DNA of 46,224 nt, taken from positions 1-46,224 of the IMG/VR virus record IMGVR_UViG_3300027631_000039, one strand, 5' to 3'. The notes beneath the pieces were generated by a model, which worked only from the letters and a program-made list of their open reading frames with translations, ran no database searches and was not told the DNA's origin. Below are positions 13,796 to 23,216 of the stretch, in pieces (the stretch's first letter is position 1; every line of letters begins with the position of its first letter). Made by a program: the position numbers and the translations under genes. Source of the DNA: a virus.

Positions 13796-16700
13796 TTAAT
13801 TAAATTGTGTTTTATCTGTCCAAATAGTTTTATCACCATTGTTATTACCTTTATATAATAATTGTAAATCAGCACTTTGTTTTGCAATTGTTGTTGAGTT
13901 CGGTGTTGTCGTATATGTAAATTTACGTGATTTTCCTTTATTGTAAGCACTAGTATTAAGATATGTTACATACTCAGCATTTTTCTTAATACTAACATAT
14001 CGTTTTGATTCCGCCTTTAATTCATTATCAACCCTATCTTTAAATGTGTCACATATTTTATCAAATTGTTTTGTTAAACTACTTGGTGAAGTTATTTTAG
14101 ATAACTCACCTGATATAATAGTTGTTTTAAAACTTTGAAGTTTATTTTTATTATTAAAAATTTGAGCCATAACCATAAAGAAACTTTTATCACTTAAGTT
14201 AGTTTCATCAAATGATGTTGAACTTGGTGTAAAACTTCCCGGTTTATCATATGTTTTTCCTGGTATAATACCTTGTGCTGGATTACTAATGAAATCACCA
14301 TATTTCATTAATCTAGCACCAACTAATTGAAAATCTCTCCATAATTCTTCATAAGTATTTGATGGTGGACCATCACTTGCTTTATCAACCTCAGATGTAC
14401 CTGAAAGACTATATATTTTAGGACCTAAATTATCAATAATAAGACCATCTGTTAATGTTGTTACTAAATTAACTTTTCTAAACACTTGAACCATTGTTTG
14501 TTCTTGTTGAGTAATATTATTACCGATTTGAGTAATACCATTACTAAAATCGTTTTTATAATCATTAACATATTTTTTTAAATTGTCTTTAACACGTTTG
14601 ATAACTGTTTCATCATTATATTGTAATGCTTTTAACCCAACTATTAATATGTTTGTACCGCTATCAATATCCGCAATCACACTATTAAATAATTCATCAA
14701 CACTTGGTTGGAACGATTGTTTACCAAAAATAGTAACTTTTTGAGGTTGGTTTGGTATTGTAAAATCTCCATTAATATATTGTCTTGTTTTACACATTAA
14801 TTGCCAAATTCCATCGTTATAAGATTTTGTTGTGCTTTCCGCTTGATTAACAATGTTAGTGTAATACTCTTTAGTAACTTCCAATAATTTATCCATTATT
14901 GATTTATAGTTAATGTCACCAGTATCACCATCAGCGTTTGGTACTGTTGTCATAATATCACCAATAGTTGTTCCCGCGTCATTTGTTTGTTGATTATTAA
15001 CATCGTTCGAACTAACCGTTGGTTGAGTACCAACAATTGACTGTACCATTTGAGCATCTAATGCACTTGTATCTTCTGTCGCTGTTGCTCTATCATCATA
15101 TATTTCAGTATTTGCATAATAATTGAACGATAATGCGTTTTGTAACTCTTCAACCGGTTTTGCAAGACCCATACCACCAATCATATCAAAAGCCATTGTT
15201 ACTTTAGCCAACATTGGTTGAACACCGATTCCTTCAGGATTCATATCTAAAAGTAATGGTTCATAACTAAAACTAACCGTACTTGGAATAATTTTAGTAT
15301 TATAAAAATCACCAATTCTTAGAACTAACACAGGAGGTGCACCAAATGCGGTATTTGAGGCGTCATTGTATTTTGGTTTACCATCTGTACCAATAACAGG
15401 AATTGTTTCACCAGGTCTAACACATTGGTTTAAGAACGTTAAACGGGCGTTTAATCCCTCAGGTGTCATAGAGTGAAAAGCTGGATTAAAATATTTAACT
15501 TTATCCTGTATTGAATCATAAACCATTGGTGAATTCTCCTTAATTGCTTCAAAATAATCACACTCAGATAACATTTGTCTAATAATTTTTTTAGTAATAC
15601 CTTCCTTAATTTTTTGTTGTATAGTAACAATTGGTTCAACAGGTGGTGTTGTAGCCCCTGTTGTTGGTGGAACAACTCTAGGTGGGTCCGGTACCGGTGT
15701 TGGTGTTGGAGACGGTGTTACTTTAATGTTTTGAATTTTAACACGTCTACAAGCCATTGCGTTTACTGAGAAAACTTGAGCAACTTTATTAGTTGCTTGA
15801 TTAGGAGTAATTTGAGCATTAATGTCATTAGTACAATTAACTTGGGCACCTAAACCCAATGGACTAACAGGTATAGAAATTGTTTCACCCGCAGCAACAG
15901 TGTTTATTGTTAATGATTTATCATCAATATATTTTGCTAATGTGTCCGCACCAACAGGAAATGTCTTTAAAAAATTAATAACCGAATCATATCGTCTTTT
16001 AGATAAATCCTCATTATAACTTTTTGATGCCGGAGCAGATGCTGAGGCAATCATATCAATAACAATTGACCCTTTTTTATTTTTTAGAATATTAAGAGCA
16101 TCCGTAAAGAAGTTTTTCTCCCCCTGTGTAATAAATTTAAAATTTTCAATTATTACATTTTTAAAAAATTCTGTTGTATTTTTACTACTTGACCCCGCAT
16201 TAAACACCCCATCAGCCATTGCTTGATATCTACCAATATTCATATTATCAACATAAGTGTTGTAATCACTAAGATACGCACTACTTGCCGTAGTCGAACC
16301 TTTTTTAGGTGGGCCAGGAATATCATTATCAAAATAAAACGCAAATTCTTTATATCTATTTTGGAAATCCGCAATTGTTGTATCCGGATTTGTTTGTGGT
16401 GTTTCTTTATTATTAATAGTGTTATCATCCCCTTTTTCAGCAACAACAGCCTTAACTTGACTCTCATTTACTTTTGGGTTTGTTAATATTTTTTGATAAG
16501 TATATAAATCCTTAATCGGAATTGTGTTAAATTTTTGAGCTAATTTATAAATATCGTATTTCACACAACCAGCAAAAAATGAATCCATTATTGAATTAAT
16601 TCTATCTTTTTTCTGACCTTTTAATTGTTTTTCAACAATCGTATTCATAATAGAAGGGTGGTCAACAATAATCTTCCAACTTAACGTACCACTTCTTCTA

Positions 16701-18772
16701 GTGTCTTTATATGTGAAAATAGGTTCGGGTCTACCTAAAAATGATGTTGGATTCCAACTTGCGGTGCTACTATCAGTAAAAGAAAGTTCATATGGTGGAA
16801 ACCACATAACTCTACCCCCGTTTGGCCCTTTTTCACAAACAGGCAATTCATCATAAGTAAAACCAGGCTTACTTGATGTTCTCCAAGCCAAATTTTCAAT
16901 TGAGAACATATATTTTTTTGCATAACCGCCTTGACCACTACCCAATAAATCAAACGATTCGTCTTTATCCGGAACAATATTTGTTGAACCCGGATTTCTC
17001 ATCGGAGCAATATTAAGGTTATACGTATTATCTAAGACAGAATTTGTAAATCTTCTTCCTGATGTTGTTATACCTTCAGTTTTTTGTAAATCCGCGTAAG
17101 TATAATACGGAGTATCCTTCGCAAACACTCGACAATACTCAATACCGGCTTCCCCACCGGTTGTTTGGTCTGTGTAAGAAACAACTTGTGAACCTTTAGT
17201 CATTTCTTTATAACCATCGTGGAATACCTTACTAACTTGGTTAATCGCATTTCCAACGTGTTTTAGTCTTGTTATACCTTGAACATTATCGGCAGAATTT
17301 ACTAATCTTTGAGTTTCATCTAAAATTGAGGTTTTTTTAAACTCAATATTTGTTGATTCATCTTGAGTATAATCACTACTAATTAAATTGAATCCTGTGT
17401 CTATAGAACCTTTTCCGCCACCTGGTGTTGCGTGATACCCCGCAGCCCCTTTATATTTTGGTGATGTCCAAACAAATTCACCATCTAAACTACCACCATC
17501 GCTTGACGATTTAGCGGCTAAACCAAAATTAAGTAAATCAGAATTTCCCTCAAATAAAATACCTAATTCTGAAGGTCCATATACAGGAGCTTCCGTTTGT
17601 TGACCAAAAGCGTTTACCGGAACTTGATTTGCTGGTGAAGTTATTGATGATGGTTCAGCCGTTTTACTACCAACATAATAACCACCCGCTAAAGTTCCAT
17701 TACTATTTAATACCGCATCAAATATTGCTTGACCAATACCTAATAACCCACCGTATTGACCATTATACGCTGGTTGATATCTGTTATATTCAAGGTTATT
17801 GAATAATGCCGACCTTTGTCCATTCCCCGTATTAACTAAGAATATTTCAGAAGGATTTCTTTTTTTATTTAATATCGGTGATAATAAACCCCCCGTTAAT
17901 TGATTCGCAACATTTAACGCATTTGAAGTTTGAGGTGTTTGACCATTTTTTGTGTTATCGTCAAAATAATCCCCCGGAATTAATGAAACCGGCCAATACG
18001 CACCAGCTAACTTAGTTACTAAATCAACCACCCCAACAATAGGGTTTTCAGGTACTGTAATTGTCCAATCTTTATATATTAAAGGTTGTTGTCCCGAAAT
18101 AAGTAAACTCGCTTCAAAAGGGTCTTGTAATGATTGTAAATTAACCATCCCAACCGTATTAATCTGAATTTCTCGATTAATTCTGTATTGGAACGATTCT
18201 TTTAATTTTTGACTTGCCAACCTAGCCATATAAGAATCCTGAGATAATGAACCATTGTCTCCTGTTGGATTGTCATTTAATAAAATACTATATGGTGAGT
18301 AAGTTGAAGGTACAAAATTTGAATTGTAAGGTATGTGTAATGGGGAACCTAAAGTACCGTCATTGGTTATATCAACCATATCATTGTAACCCCCAACAGG
18401 CCCAAAATAATTACTTACATAGGCACTATCAATAAAAAATTCATTTACTAAATCTAACGCTGTATCATCCGGACTATATTCTCCCTGATTTGAATTTACC
18501 GGTAACGGTACTCCATTATAATCTAAAGTAGTGTTGTACCCACCATTTGGCCCAAATTGGTTTAATGGATATAATTGTGCAGCAAAAGGGTCGTTACCTA
18601 TTAAATCATTTGGAGAGTCAATCACATTAAATGAACTTAACACAACCTCTGTATCTAAATCTGACGATGGGGGTGTATATACACCTGTAACACCATATGG
18701 AGTTAAATTTTTACTTAATAAAGTATTTCTAAACGATGATGTAGACGCAAATGATAATGGACTATTTGGCAT
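13796..18772 (-). CDS. Large baseplate/tail-tube-initiator-like protein with internal OmpA-like domain
   Basis: A 1658-aa protein. Around 640-710 it has the pattern MWFPPYELSF...FLGRPEPIFTYKDTRRSGTL, reminiscent of gp48/gp54-type tube initiator proteins. At about 899-960 there is an OmpA-like segment (GSIVIDMIASASAP then LSKRRYDSVINFLKTF), the peptidoglycan-binding fold. At about 1040-1065 there is a Pro/Thr linker. At about 1146-1225 a contractile-tail tube-protein-like stretch occurs (PVLVLRIGDFYNTKIIPSTV, then LAKVTMAFDMIGGMGLAKPV). The first ~600 residues are Gly/Asn/Pro-rich and unrecognised. It is likely a baseplate component between tape measure and gp53, possibly a fusion of several T4-sized functions. 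A TATTTAT element lies 10 bp upstream of its ATG. Confidence 0.7.
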   Translation of the reverse strand: MPNSPLSFASTSSFRNTLLSKNLTPYGVTGVYTPPSSDLDTEVVLSSFNVIDSPNDLIGNDPFAAQLYPLNQFGPNGGYNTTLDYNGVPLPVNSNQGEYSPDDTALDLVNEFFIDSAYVSNYFGPVGGYNDMVDITNDGTLGSPLHIPYNSNFVPSTYSPYSILLNDNPTGDNGSLSQDSYMARLASQKLKESFQYRINREIQINTVGMVNLQSLQDPFEASLLISGQQPLIYKDWTITVPENPIVGVVDLVTKLAGAYWPVSLIPGDYFDDNTKNGQTPQTSNALNVANQLTGGLLSPILNKKRNPSEIFLVNTGNGQRSALFNNLEYNRYQPAYNGQYGGLLGIGQAIFDAVLNSNGTLAGGYYVGSKTAEPSSITSPANQVPVNAFGQQTEAPVYGPSELGILFEGNSDLLNFGLAAKSSSDGGSLDGEFVWTSPKYKGAAGYHATPGGGKGSIDTGFNLISSDYTQDESTNIEFKKTSILDETQRLVNSADNVQGITRLKHVGNAINQVSKVFHDGYKEMTKGSQVVSYTDQTTGGEAGIEYCRVFAKDTPYYTYADLQKTEGITTSGRRFTNSVLDNTYNLNIAPMRNPGSTNIVPDKDESFDLLGSGQGGYAKKYMFSIENLAWRTSSKPGFTYDELPVCEKGPNGGRVMWFPPYELSFTDSSTASWNPTSFLGRPEPIFTYKDTRRSGTLSWKIIVDHPSIMNTIVEKQLKGQKKDRINSIMDSFFAGCVKYDIYKLAQKFNTIPIKDLYTYQKILTNPKVNESQVKAVVAEKGDDNTINNKETPQTNPDTTIADFQNRYKEFAFYFDNDIPGPPKKGSTTASSAYLSDYNTYVDNMNIGRYQAMADGVFNAGSSSKNTTEFFKNVIIENFKFITQGEKNFFTDALNILKNKKGSIVIDMIASASAPASKSYNEDLSKRRYDSVINFLKTFPVGADTLAKYIDDKSLTINTVAAGETISIPVSPLGLGAQVNCTNDINAQITPNQATNKVAQVFSVNAMACRRVKIQNIKVTPSPTPTPVPDPPRVVPPTTGATTPPVEPIVTIQQKIKEGITKKIIRQMLSECDYFEAIKENSPMVYDSIQDKVKYFNPAFHSMTPEGLNARLTFLNQCVRPGETIPVIGTDGKPKYNDASNTAFGAPPVLVLRIGDFYNTKIIPSTVSFSYEPLLLDMNPEGIGVQPMLAKVTMAFDMIGGMGLAKPVEELQNALSFNYYANTEIYDDRATATEDTSALDAQMVQSIVGTQPTVSSNDVNNQQTNDAGTTIGDIMTTVPNADGDTGDINYKSIMDKLLEVTKEYYTNIVNQAESTTKSYNDGIWQLMCKTRQYINGDFTIPNQPQKVTIFGKQSFQPSVDELFNSVIADIDSGTNILIVGLKALQYNDETVIKRVKDNLKKYVNDYKNDFSNGITQIGNNITQQEQTMVQVFRKVNLVTTLTDGLIIDNLGPKIYSLSGTSEVDKASDGPPSNTYEELWRDFQLVGARLMKYGDFISNPAQGIIPGKTYDKPGSFTPSSTSFDETNLSDKSFFMVMAQIFNNKNKLQSFKTTIISGELSKITSPSSLTKQFDKICDTFKDRVDNELKAESKRYVSIKKNAEYVTYLNTSAYNKGKSRKFTYTTTPNSTTIAKQSADLQLLYKGNNNGDKTIWTDKTQFN

Positions 18773-18804: not shown

Positions 18805-20682
18805 CTATTTTTTAAAATTATTGTTCATTATTTTTTGAGGACTAGATTCTGGTGAATTTTTATTTAGTTCCATTGTAACAGTTTTTGTTAAGGATTCCTT
18901 AATACCTGTTTTATTTAATACTTCCATAAATTGATGTTCAGTTATATTATCACCTTTAACATCAACACTAAAGTTCATTTGAACTACGATAGGTTCTGAA
19001 CTACCTTGACCACCACTTGATTTACCTCCATATAAGTCAGTACCACCAACCAATTTTAATTCGTCTTGTTTGTGTGTTTCAATTATAAAATTATCAACTT
19101 TAAGTTTTTGCGACCCGGTTGCGGTTGTTGATTTAGCGGCCGCACTACTAACACCTAAAGATTTCCCTAATGTTCCTATACTATTATTTAGTAATTGAAT
19201 AATTCCATTTTGAGATTTACCTAAATTATCGGTAGCAACTTTAGCATTACCCATCGCCTCTGTCCAAGTACTTCCAAAAGCTGTTTTAGTGTTTTCACTA
19301 ATTTTAGAGAAAGACTCTGTAACATCCGCCATTGTTCCCGTTCCTTTTGCAAATTTATTTAAAACATCAAAAGCAATATCTGTTGTTTCATCCAAACCTT
19401 GACCAATTTTTTTAGACGTAACACCTTTTGCCACTGTTCCTAACCCTTCAACTATTTCTCTTGGTGCTTCAGTAATCGCTTTACCACCTCTACTTCCCGC
19501 AATGGCTGCCGGTAGTCTTTTTGACATAGATTCTAAAATCTTCTCAATTCTTTCTGAACTATTTAATTGACCTTTAGCCAAGTCCTCCATACTTTTTGGT
19601 TTTGACGCCTCAACTAACGCTTCTAAATCTGTTGAATTTAATTCAGATACCGCCTTTTCTTGAGCTTTACCATCTTTATCAGTAAAATTAACAACATATT
19701 GACCACCCTTCATTTCCGCCATATTGGCAATCATAGTCTTTTGTTCGTCAGTTGCCGCAGGGAATTTAATCTTCTTCATCTTATCATCCAAATCAGCACT
19801 TGCTAACGCCATTTTAGATAATTGACCCAATGGTAAACCCATCTCTTTTTCAATCTCTCTCATTTGACGTTTAGCCCCCGGCATAATTTCAAAACCGGTT
19901 CCGTCTTTTTTCAATTGGACAAATTGTTGAGACATTTTTGACATCTGATTTTGTAATTCACCAGGGTCATTTTGTGCCAAGTCCATCAATCTTAACGGGT
20001 CCAATAAATCACTTTGAGCAACACCTAATCGTTGCATTGACGCCGCCATATTAATAGCCCCTTCAGGGTCAAAAACTTTTTCAGCAAAAGCCAACGAGTC
20101 TTTCATATCAATTCTTAAACTTGTTGCTTGAGCCGCCATTTTTGCCAATCCTTGAACTCCCCCTTCAAAATTATATTTGTTAAGAGCGTCCATATTTTGT
20201 AACACTTGTCCTGAAACCGCACTTGCGTTAACTCCTGACGCTCTCGCAATATTAACAACATCCCCCATTTGTTTGGTTGCATCATACACAGAAATACCAA
20301 CATCTTTAAATGATTTAGTAATGGTTCCCGCGTCTTGACCGGAAGCCTTCATTGTTGCATACATATCCTTAAAAGCATCTGTGGATAATACCAAATTTTT
20401 ACCTAATGTAGTCGAAACACTTTGTTGAATATCTACAATAGTTTGAAAATTTCCCCCTAATTCAGTTACATCGGGTATTGCGTTTGCAAGGTTTTGTCTA
20501 ATAGCAGCAACCGCCTCTCTACTAGCACCAAACGTACCTAATACTTTAGCCGCACCATCATCAACTTGCTTTAACGTATCTAGAATAACAGCAGGGTTAA
20601 AATTATCGGTAAATGCTTTACCTAATTCTTTCCCCATTTTTCCCGCCATATCACCTATTCCACCGGTTTCTTCTCCTGCCAT
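18805..20682 (-). CDS. Tape measure protein (T4 gp29-like role)
   Basis: A 625-aa, mostly helical, Ala/Met/Lys-rich protein, near T4 gp29 in length (590 aa). Long amphipathic helices dominate from 1 to about 500 (for example ASVGQVLQNM-type repeats near 150 and LQNQMSKMSQQFVQLKKDG near 250). A Gly/Ser-rich segment lies near 540 (GGKSSGGQGSSEP), with a compact beta-alpha end. Its place between the tube/chaperone genes and baseplate genes is where contractile phages keep the tape measure. It would fill the tube lumen and set tail length; by rule of thumb this predicts a tail similar to T4's. A TATTTAT element precedes it. Confidence 0.8.
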   Translation of the reverse strand: MAGEETGGIGDMAGKMGKELGKAFTDNFNPAVILDTLKQVDDGAAKVLGTFGASREAVAAIRQNLANAIPDVTELGGNFQTIVDIQQSVSTTLGKNLVLSTDAFKDMYATMKASGQDAGTITKSFKDVGISVYDATKQMGDVVNIARASGVNASAVSGQVLQNMDALNKYNFEGGVQGLAKMAAQATSLRIDMKDSLAFAEKVFDPEGAINMAASMQRLGVAQSDLLDPLRLMDLAQNDPGELQNQMSKMSQQFVQLKKDGTGFEIMPGAKRQMREIEKEMGLPLGQLSKMALASADLDDKMKKIKFPAATDEQKTMIANMAEMKGGQYVVNFTDKDGKAQEKAVSELNSTDLEALVEASKPKSMEDLAKGQLNSSERIEKILESMSKRLPAAIAGSRGGKAITEAPREIVEGLGTVAKGVTSKKIGQGLDETTDIAFDVLNKFAKGTGTMADVTESFSKISENTKTAFGSTWTEAMGNAKVATDNLGKSQNGIIQLLNNSIGTLGKSLGVSSAAAKSTTATGSQKLKVDNFIIETHKQDELKLVGGTDLYGGKSSGGQGSSEPIVVQMNFSVDVKGDNITEHQFMEVLNKTGIKESLTKTVTMELNKNSPESSPQKIMNNNFKK

Positions 20683-20727: not shown

Positions 20728-20913
20728 TTACGTCTTTGGTGTATTATCTTCAATTATCCTATCTATAAGGTATTTTCTAACATATGTCGGAATTTGAAAG
20801 AATTCAGTATATGAAGTTCTAATAAATTTCGCCATAAAGTAATATTCTTCAATCAGAAGTTGTCTGTGATTAGAAGAAAGGCCGAAAAAACTCCACCCCA
20901 AACGATATCTCAA
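20728..20913 (-). CDS. Overlapping +1-frame extension of the hub chaperone (gp51-like), probably made by frameshift
   Basis: An open frame of 61 codons that overlaps the 3' end of the gp26-like gene by 44 bp in the +1 frame. The only start at its head is TTG at 20913; the first ATG inside (MAKFIRTSYTEFF) would give 35 aa. The sequence reads as real protein: HRQLLIEEYYFMAKFIRTSY then IPTYVRKYLIDRI. This Y-x-hydrophobic...MP/IPxYxRRYLI-like pattern is typical of tail/hub assembly chaperone extensions in other phages. No good independent start supports it, so expression as a fusion to the upstream gene is the more likely route. The next gene downstream is the tape measure, the usual client of such chaperones. 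Confidence 0.65.
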   Translation of the reverse strand: MRYRLGWSFFGLSSNHRQLLIEEYYFMAKFIRTSYTEFFQIPTYVRKYLIDRIIEDNTPKT

Positions 20914-21625
20914 ATGATATCTTTTCTCCTGATGGGGCGATTGCGGCTCTCGTTAATTCTAACGATGGTTGGTTATCTCTAATAAATTTACGGATATATT
21001 TTGAATCCATAATTGGTAGAGTACTTACAAATAATGCAATATTTGATTTATCGGAATCACCATTAAATTCCACAATATGTTTCATCAATCTAAGTGTAAC
21101 TATTGGTGCTGTTCTACCAACAGGGTAAGTATCAACTATTGAACTTATTTCCAAAGTATCTGAATATGTTAACGGTCTTAATTTAACAGTAACACCTGAT
21201 TTTGGTAATTTTGTTGTAAATAACCCATTTTCATCCGGTTTAACTTCAGTTTTTCTAATATCTAATTCATCCAAAATAACCGAATGTGAAAAAGGTTTTT
21301 TTGTTTGAGGGTCGGTTAAACTTACAGTATATTCAGGTCCAAAAGATGTGTTTCTTAAGAATAATAAAATTGCTTCAACATCCCCGTCAATTAACTCTTC
21401 CGGTCTTAGGTCGTGTTCATACATTTTATTTCTAAGTAATGACATAATAATGTTATCATTAGTTCCTTGACCCGACATTAACGAGTTTTCATCTGTTGCT
21501 GTTAAATAACCTACTTTTATTGATTTCTTTTTTGATTTATAAAAAATCCCACCTGAAGGTAATTGTACAACATCGTGTGGTAAGTTGAAATTTTCGGTTC
21601 CAGCATTTACAATATCTTGTTCCAT
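20870..21625 (-). CDS. 26: Baseplate hub assembly protein, T4 gp26-like
   Basis: A 251-aa protein resembling the T4_baseplate (gp26) family. Features are a start rich in NLPHDVVQLPSGGIFY, the segment TATDENSLMSGQGTNDNII, VKLRPLTYSDTLEISSIVDT in the middle, and the C-terminal IMDSKYIRKFIRDNQPSLEL. Family members act in assembling the baseplate hub or as tail chaperones. The reading frame ends in GVEFFRPFF immediately after a T6 run, where a +1 shift would continue into the overlapping 51-codon frame to give a product of about 298 aa. A TATTTATAATAA element lies 12 bp upstream of the ATG, with a second copy farther up overlapping the tube-gene terminator. Confidence 0.75.
   Translation of the reverse strand: MEQDIVNAGTENFNLPHDVVQLPSGGIFYKSKKKSIKVGYLTATDENSLMSGQGTNDNIIMSLLRNKMYEHDLRPEELIDGDVEAILLFLRNTSFGPEYTVSLTDPQTKKPFSHSVILDELDIRKTEVKPDENGLFTTKLPKSGVTVKLRPLTYSDTLEISSIVDTYPVGRTAPIVTLRLMKHIVEFNGDSDKSNIALFVSTLPIMDSKYIRKFIRDNQPSLELTRAAIAPSGEKISFEISFGVEFFRPFF
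20882..20893 (-). other. Candidate +1 ribosomal frameshift site (TTT-TTT-CGG)
   Basis: In the gp26-like frame the codons are GAG TTT TTT CGG (20893 down to 20882), ending four codons later at TAA. Slipping one base forward on TTTC places a Phe tRNA on TTC and continues GGC CTT TCT in the overlapping frame. Phe tRNA pairs better with TTC than TTT, and CGG should be a slow codon in such an A+T-rich genome; both favour +1 movement. Confidence 0.5.
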
Positions 21626-21730: not shown

Positions 21731-22219
21731 TTAGTAAACTAATATACATCTATCCATACGTAAAGTTGTAGATATAGTCGCTAAAGCATCTGTACCATAA
21801 GCCAACGAATCAAAGTTAACATCAGATAAGAAAGTTCCTTCTAATATCCATTTTTCTACAACAACACCTGTTGGGTCTAACATTTCAAGGTCAACATTCT
21901 TTTTATATCCCGCTGCGTACCCCATACGTCCTGTTACAGACTCCGCACATAAACGAACCCACTCCATAAGAGCTTGAGACGCTGAAGGACCAATTGGGTC
22001 TCTGAATTTAACCGGGATAGTACTCCAAGTAAAACGTCCTGCAACATATGTCTCAGTATTTAAGAAAGGTATCGCCACCGGAGCTATCGTTATGTGTGGT
22101 CTAGCAGCCGATTCTACGAACCATTCGTTAATCCCTAAAGAAGAAGGGAATCGTACAATAAACCTATTTTGTCTTTTTGGTTCATACGGTATGGGCATTT
22201 TCATTAATAAATCAGCCAT
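21731..22219 (-). CDS. 19: Tail tube protein, T4 gp19-like
   Basis: A 162-aa protein, almost exactly the T4 gp19 length (163 aa), with the family pattern. The N-terminus has KRQNRFIVRFPSSLGINEW. The middle has ARPHITIAPVAIPFLNTETY, VAGRFTWSTIPVKFRDPIGP and SASQALMEWVRLCAES. The C-terminus has VEKWILEGTFLSDVNFDSLA. It polymerises into the rigid inner tube inside the sheath. It is isolated as its own unit: a TATTTAT element about 37 bp upstream of the ATG and a strong terminator 20 bp downstream fit the high copy number of the product. Confidence 0.93.
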   Translation of the reverse strand: MADLLMKMPIPYEPKRQNRFIVRFPSSLGINEWFVESAARPHITIAPVAIPFLNTETYVAGRFTWSTIPVKFRDPIGPSASQALMEWVRLCAESVTGRMGYAAGYKKNVDLEMLDPTGVVVEKWILEGTFLSDVNFDSLAYGTDALATISTTLRMDRCILVY

Positions 22220-22397: not shown

Positions 22398-23216
22398 TTA
22401 ATATTCTTTTTTTATTCCTCCAGCCGTTGAATACGTTTTAATAATATTCTCTGGGTCTTGCTCAAAATGTTTTTTCACAACATCCACATTTTTTAAGTCG
22501 TCATCTGAAAAACCTATCTTAGGGACAAAATAATTATTTATTTTATTTTTTAAATAAGCGTGTTTTTGTATATATTGTGACATATCCTTAACATATTTAA
22601 CAAACTCATTTAACGCTTTAATTTTACCTTCCTCCGGATTAGTCGCAGAACCTTCACCATAAGTTACTGGATAAAACTTACATAAATCCAAATATTCTCT
22701 AATCATCTCTCTTTTAGATATATTGTCCTCGTCAGCTAAATCTCTGTATTTTTCTAAATTTTTAACTAATTCATTTGAATCTATACCATTATAATTAGAT
22801 ATAATATAATTATAACAAGCCTCTTTTAAAACTGATGGTGTGTGCCCTCTTGCCGTAACAATTGAAAATATTGAACCATTATTGATTGCTTCAACAAAAT
22901 CATTCCAAGCGGGACCTGGTTTAGCAGTCATAGCATCAATAATAAATTGTTTGTCCCCCTGAACACCAAAATAAAAAAATGGTTCATCTGAAAAACTAAC
23001 AATTTTGTGACCATCAAATTCAAAAGGTTCTTTACCAATTTCTTCTCTATATGTTGCAAAATCTTCTGTCGACATTCCTACAGTATCCCCTTCTTCGTCT
23101 TTTAACAATATTTTAGTTGGCATTGAGACAATATTGTCATCCCAATCAAATGCGTAATATTTTTCATCCGGTGCTCCAAATTCATCAATACCTTCGACTA
23201 TCTTATTTTTTAACAT
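22398..23216 (-). CDS. HAD-superfamily hydrolase/phosphatase-like protein
   Basis: A 272-aa protein with HAD motifs. Motif I is YAFDWDDNIV (D24, D26), motif II is SIFSIVTARGHTP (T120), a basic motif III candidate is EEGKIKALNEF (K197/K199), and an acidic motif IV is GFSDDDLKNV (D237-D239). The insert between motifs I and II (about 30-110) is larger than minimal. Related phosphatase folds occur in T4 polynucleotide kinase, but no kinase P-loop is present here. It sits between the tail tube and sheath genes, an unexpected place for an enzyme. A substrate cannot be inferred; end-healing of nucleic acid or a virion-associated phosphatase are both possible. Confidence 0.75.
   Translation of the reverse strand: MLKNKIVEGIDEFGAPDEKYYAFDWDDNIVSMPTKILLKDEEGDTVGMSTEDFATYREEIGKEPFEFDGHKIVSFSDEPFFYFGVQGDKQFIIDAMTAKPGPAWNDFVEAINNGSIFSIVTARGHTPSVLKEACYNYIISNYNGIDSNELVKNLEKYRDLADEDNISKREMIREYLDLCKFYPVTYGEGSATNPEEGKIKALNEFVKYVKDMSQYIQKHAYLKNKINNYFVPKIGFSDDDLKNVDVVKKHFEQDPENIIKTYSTAGGIKKEY

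Follow-up and report, generated by a model that had tools for sequence, protein, structure and literature searches.

Frameshifting in phage tail assembly chaperones (TACs) is textbook knowledge. In phage lambda (G/GT), and in the general TAC-N/TAC-NC scheme, one gene between the tube or major tail gene and the tape measure gene gives a short form and, through a frameshift, a long form with a small C-terminal domain (Levin 1993 and Xu 2004, cited in PMC5009743). Lambda-type TACs mostly shift by -1, and the TAC of the archaeal myovirus HSTV-2 was reported to shift very likely by +1 (PMC5009743). A 2016 review names T4 as the exception to TAC frameshifting. Later work accounts for T4 with two separate genes: T4 gp26 and gp51 have already been published as TACs, a short and a long form from paralogous genes (Vladimirov, Gautam and Davidson, Virology 2022, according to PMC10885494 and PMC12846349), and polyT -1 signals in T4-like phages are attributed to the same work in PMC12846349. 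For cyanophages, Sullivan et al. (2010; PMC3037559) noted a gp51 that has about 20% of the length of other gp51 proteins and matches the C-terminus.

We analysed a 46,224-nucleotide stretch of viral DNA (IMG/VR record IMGVR_UViG_3300027631_000039, hereafter the window), in which one minus-strand gene resembles the lambda G/GT and TAC-N/TAC-NC genes in position and in its small C-terminal domain from a second frame (Table 1). Judged from its sequence and its relatives, this gene very probably encodes a TAC of a T4-type contractile phage and would give two proteins from one message through a +1 frameshift. The first-pass annotation had described a 251-aa frame ending shortly past GAG TTT TTT CGG, with a +1 frame that runs on for 51 protein-like codons. 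Both statements are borne out: a frame of 251 codons begins at the ATG, and the stop lies four codons on from CGG (GGG GTG GAG TTT TTT CGG CCT TTC TTC TAA). Skipping one base would fuse the two parts into a protein of 298 aa, with the junction VEFFGLSS in the translation of the joined frames. No ATG was found when we searched the +1 frame upstream of the junction, as annotated, but a TTG that the annotation had passed over lies in this frame six codons upstream. CGG had been called a rare codon and is one (0/3908 codons in five neighbouring genes); what is conserved, however, is CGN and not CGG.

Table 1. Positions of the gp26-like gene, its putative slip site and its neighbours in the window
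Feature	Position	Strand	Basis or remark
Tail sheath gene, 1191 aa	23275-26850	-	
Gene between sheath and tube genes	22398-23216	-	
Tail tube gene, upstream neighbour	21731..22219	-	phrog_4542, E 1.1e-24
Short form (G / TAC-N), gp26-like ORF, 251 aa plus TAA	20870..21625	-	PF12322, phrog_150, relatives
ATG of the short form	21625	-	
TAA of the short form	20872-20870	-	
TTG in the +1 frame	20901-20899	-	
GGGGT, possible SD-like stimulator	20895..20899	-	
T6 run	20890-20885	-	next base C = 20884
Putative slip tetranucleotide TTT-C	20884..20887	-	P-site UUU would re-pair to UUC
Zero-frame A-site codon CGG	20882..20884	-	CGN in relatives, TGG in clade B
+1-frame extension (T domain), 51 residues, GLSSNHRQ...NTPKT	20731..20883	-	open in close relatives
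Stop of the +1 frame	20728-20730	-	
625-aa ORF directly downstream, presumed tape measure protein	18805..20682	-	position, length
Gene for a 1658-aa protein past the presumed tape measure	13796-18772	-	

The short form matched PF12322 (T4_baseplate) with an E value of 3.2e-9 (37.2 bits, above the cut-off of 24.5) and phrog_150 with 3.5e-14, the family to which T4 gp26 belongs. Searches of NCBIfam, and of the PDB by sequence, gave no match for the window protein; Foldseek with the predicted structure found nothing significant in the PDB, and a structure search of BFVD returned the T4_baseplate family itself. In a second-look structural alignment, 3fgx (Z 8.0, 88 aligned, 4.2 A), the HK97 TAC 2ob9 (Z 5.3) and YqbN 3klu (Z 5.0) were among the top rows. 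We take 3fgx and 3klu to be TACs as well, and such a concentration of TACs in the top rows is suggestive, Z values of 5 to 8 being weak singly. The annotation had spoken of a gp26-like hub protein; gp26-like it is, but tail assembly chaperone is the better name.

The genomic position agrees. The gene sits between the tail tube gene and the presumed tape measure gene, that is, in the TAC position. We assigned the tape measure from its place in the window and from Flavobacterium phage immuto, where the equivalent slot is annotated as tail tape measure protein; Pfam and PHROG profile searches gave no convincing match for the 625-aa ORF. As in the long forms of TACs, an N-terminal domain common to both products would be followed by a C-terminal domain that is encoded close to the 3' end in a different frame, as read from sequence and conservation. 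A T4-type TAC is the best interpretation of the protein, with gp26 alone as the short form and gp26 plus a gp51-type tail as the long form. Several neighbours showed features of their own. The gene between the sheath and tube genes encodes a DWDDNIV motif resembling HAD phosphatases and gave no Pfam or convincing PHROG match, recognised sheath domains occupy only the C-terminal 285 residues of the tail sheath protein, and the 1658-aa protein has a weak OmpA-like stretch (E 0.07, below the cut-off).

We then looked at close relatives of the gene (clade A). Scanning IMG/VR with patterns from the protein body, none of them over the slip site, yielded 80 loci with 57-100% identity. The junction is intact in 76 sequences, counting that of the window; every one of them has TTTTTTCG and an open +1 frame. 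Changes were counted in 32 representatives chosen at less than 95% DNA identity. In these, the stretch TTT GGG GTN GAN TTT TTT CGN CCT TTC changes only in codons 244-245 and in the third base of CGN. Codons 246-247 show zero parsimony changes, compared with a mean of 5.8 third-base changes in 59 upstream degenerate codons that are invariant in amino acid, only two of which have none. The first two bases of CGN are likewise unchanged, while its third base changed nine times on the tree, so that the first +1 residue is G, A, D or V. Each of the four possible CGN codons is used by some relative, and the usual arginine codon of the clade is AGA.

Two further observations concern the rest of the gene. 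Upstream of the site, in-frame TTT-C is depleted (6 of 284 TTT codons, versus 11.1% of all codons followed by C). The pN/pS values beyond the zero-frame TAA are 0.50 for the +1 frame and 1.01 and 1.46 for the other two; the region is under purifying selection solely in the +1 frame. Taken together, the invariant site, the depletion of TTT-C and the pN/pS value have the character of a slip site in use and of a +1 frame that is translated. The annotation had proposed aligning homologues for the slippery run and both frames, and had named loss of the run or a separate ATG-started second gene as evidence to the contrary. In the relatives the slip site is kept, the +1 frame is open and there is no such second gene. 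A scan of genome contigs with the clade A profile returned no relative.

Two additional scans, whose patterns likewise avoided the slip site, added two other deep clades (B and C) and raised the number of non-redundant loci to 134. The extension is in the +1 frame in 130 of the 134, and 126 of these 130 have UUU then a pyrimidine, or CUU-U. The site reads TTT TTT TGG in Mel-JY01 (Microcystis) and RM378, TTT TTT CAC in SP-15 (Bacillus), TTC TTT CGT in SagM-GXN1, TTC TTT CCC in QdP_Psa3, TTT CTT TGG in Flavobacterium immuto and AAC TTT CTA in the uncultured LR756508. The fourth base is always C or U, and tRNA-Phe (anticodon GAA) needs just such a base if it is to re-pair from UUU to UUY. The slip codons of the other clades fit the same step. 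Since the layout recurs in every intact close relative and in most distant ones, it is not due to chance. The annotations of immuto, SP-15, Mel-JY01 and the cyanophages give the extension a small gene of its own, named hypothetical or gp51, and these entries can now be corrected. Four SP-15-type relatives (L193, L196, L198 and L202) apparently slip at CCC-A (AAT CCC AGT). The extension is in the -1 frame at L137 and L206-L208 (clades B and C); L137, a clade B locus, has AAT TTC TTC TGG CCT in the region of the gp26 stop.

From the comparative evidence we infer the following course of events. Most ribosomes would stay in the zero frame as far as the TAA and so produce the short form of 251 aa (G / TAC-N). 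A minority would pause with peptidyl-tRNA-Phe on the second UUU and a slow CGN (or UGG) in the A site, re-pair one base forward from UUU to UUY and go on in the +1 frame. If the two products work like G and GT of lambda, the short one would coat the tape measure protein, and tube subunits would be recruited by the long one. The window gene differs from the mostly -1 lambda-type TACs, and from the classical X_XXY_YYZ signal, in having its extension in the +1 frame, the direction reported as very likely for the TAC of HSTV-2, a virus of a different lineage. CUU-U, as found in immuto, is also the slip sequence of bacterial prfB; unlike prfB, the site described here has the sense codon CGN and not a stop in the A site, and the functions are not shared. 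UUU then CGN is the slip site of influenza A PA-X, which again has no function in common with the window gene.

Possible stimulators were considered next. In clade A, GGGGT may act as an SD-like element: GGG at codon 243 is present in 32/32 representatives with zero changes, and the predicted duplex with the anti-SD has a mean of -6.1 kcal/mol, compared with -1.8 kcal/mol for the rest of the gene. The element is 7 nt away from the P-site codon, whereas the prfB spacing is about 3 nt, and in clades B and C the pairing is nearer the background level. GGGGT is limited to clade A, and no stimulator is common to clades A, B and C. An SD geometry of the prfB type is not conserved. For a 3' stem-loop, the sequence from the window by itself folds at a z of -2.1, but the hairpin is not kept across clade A. 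A small hairpin across the clade A slip site (GGGG with CCT) was dropped, since a slipping ribosome would already have opened it and the other clades do not keep the GGGG. The region has no clearly conserved RNA structure, and an Rfam search gave no match. Evident SD sequences are absent before the starts of the gp26-like gene and the next gene, which would fit translation of the Bacteroidota type; Bacteroidia nevertheless commonly carry prfB frameshift sites (PMC8710568).

Four other explanations of the layout were weighed. The one that survives best, although we consider it very improbable, takes the +1 ORF as a separate gene started at the TTG inside the first gene. The +1-frame TTG is present in 32/32 clade A representatives, TTTGGGG is invariant beyond what the zero frame needs, and Mel-JY01 is annotated with a start at an equivalent TTG; judged on clade A alone, a separate start would be conceivable. 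However, at least 43 non-redundant loci of the other clades, RM378 among them, have the junction and the T domain but no ATG, GTG or TTG between the upstream +1 stop and the tenth codon beyond the slip, and this speaks against an independent second gene. In addition, the SD signal before the TTG is not above background (-2.9 versus -2.0 kcal/mol, sd 2.3), and a separate start leaves unexplained why UUU-pyrimidine is kept where the preceding +1 residue changes (TTC TTT C).

No more credible, and rated slightly lower still, is transcriptional slippage on the T6 run, by which an mRNA one base shorter would join the two ORFs. Runs of T6 or T7 do occur at most clade A and B loci, but 13 non-redundant loci with only T3 (CTTTGG, TTCTTTCG, AACTTTCTA and similar) keep the +1 layout; this count leaves out the clade B loci L124, L127, L134 and L135, to which an upstream TTT-C was assigned, and the -1 locus L206. 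The same 13 loci disfavour a -2 shift as in phage Mu, which would lead into the same frame as +1 and to which we give equally little credence. UUUUUU permits -2 re-pairing in clades A and B, and in one cyanophage, S-SCSM1, the +1/-2 frame encodes the T domain at a T_TTT_TTC site; TTC TTT C, CTT T and AAC TTT C, however, permit +1 but not -2 re-pairing, and a pyrimidine at the fourth base is predicted by +1 only. There is a negligible chance that the gene is decayed or that the layout stems from a mistake in sequencing or assembly, given that isolates and independent assemblies share it at 130 of 134 non-redundant loci. The comparative evidence best supports a +1 shift on TTT-C that joins the gp26-like and gp51-like parts, as the first-pass annotation had suggested.

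What the shift would add to the protein was addressed by structure prediction and profile comparison. AlphaFold2, run on an alignment of 71 unshifted rows, gave a mean pLDDT of 78.8. The +1-frame residues 251-298 are modelled as three helices, for which block pLDDT is 80-96, and the linker 220-249 is unreliable. The extension is thus confidently predicted to be a three-helix domain. On its own it found no match in named phages by tblastn, and direct profile comparison with the T4 gp51 tail (phrog_634) was not significant. Profiles nevertheless connect stepwise from clade A to clade B (97% probability), from clade B to the cyanophages (87%) and from the cyanophages to the C-terminus of T4 gp51 (95%). 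The earlier label of a gp51-like extension is therefore retained as an indirect link through this chain of sequence profiles, and not as a direct match.

In T4 the same two products appear to be arranged differently. T4 gp26 and gp51 both cover nearly all of the PF12322 profile, and gp51 has about 45 extra residues as a tail; T4 therefore makes its short and long form from two paralogous genes, as do its near relatives, where the window has one gene of the same family plus a probable frameshift. Cyanophage-type loci are orthologous and carry the T domain in the same place, but in the -1 frame: it follows T_TTT_TTC in 79 of 79 loci, 74 of which have no start codon before the gp26 stop. Cyanophage gp51 (L092 and L213-L292), a separate small gene in the S-RIM8 annotation, is in nearly all cases the -1 continuation of gp26.

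We think it rather probable that one orthologous family has kept a two-product chaperone while switching the route to it: by +1 at UUU-pyrimidine (the window clade, immuto, Mel-JY01, SP-15 and many uncultured phages), by -1 at U_UUU_UUC (cyanophages) and by duplication (T4). The +1 site, UUU then CGN or UGG with neither a stop nor a shared stimulator, would then be a sense-codon motif widespread in bacterial viruses. Neither a +1 version in the T4-like branch nor a change of direction within one family was found in the open-access literature consulted. What appears to be new, on the sequences compared here, is that a T4-type chaperone would shift by +1 and that this arrangement is deeply conserved. 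The evidence from this locus points to frameshifting in a large branch related to T4; the shift would go forward, the rarer direction, and its simple site obeys a clear codon-anticodon rule (UUU then pyrimidine). The family offers a natural series (+1, -1, duplicated) for studying how shift direction evolves.

Two single loci may be added. In S-SCSM1 (L091, 4610-4880), the +1/-2 position of the T domain at T_TTT_TTC, against -1 in 79 relatives, reflects either a sequencing error or a true change. In the 595 kb uncultured phage LR756511 (L090), a gp26-like gene has GGT TTT TTC, with the extension in the -1 frame.
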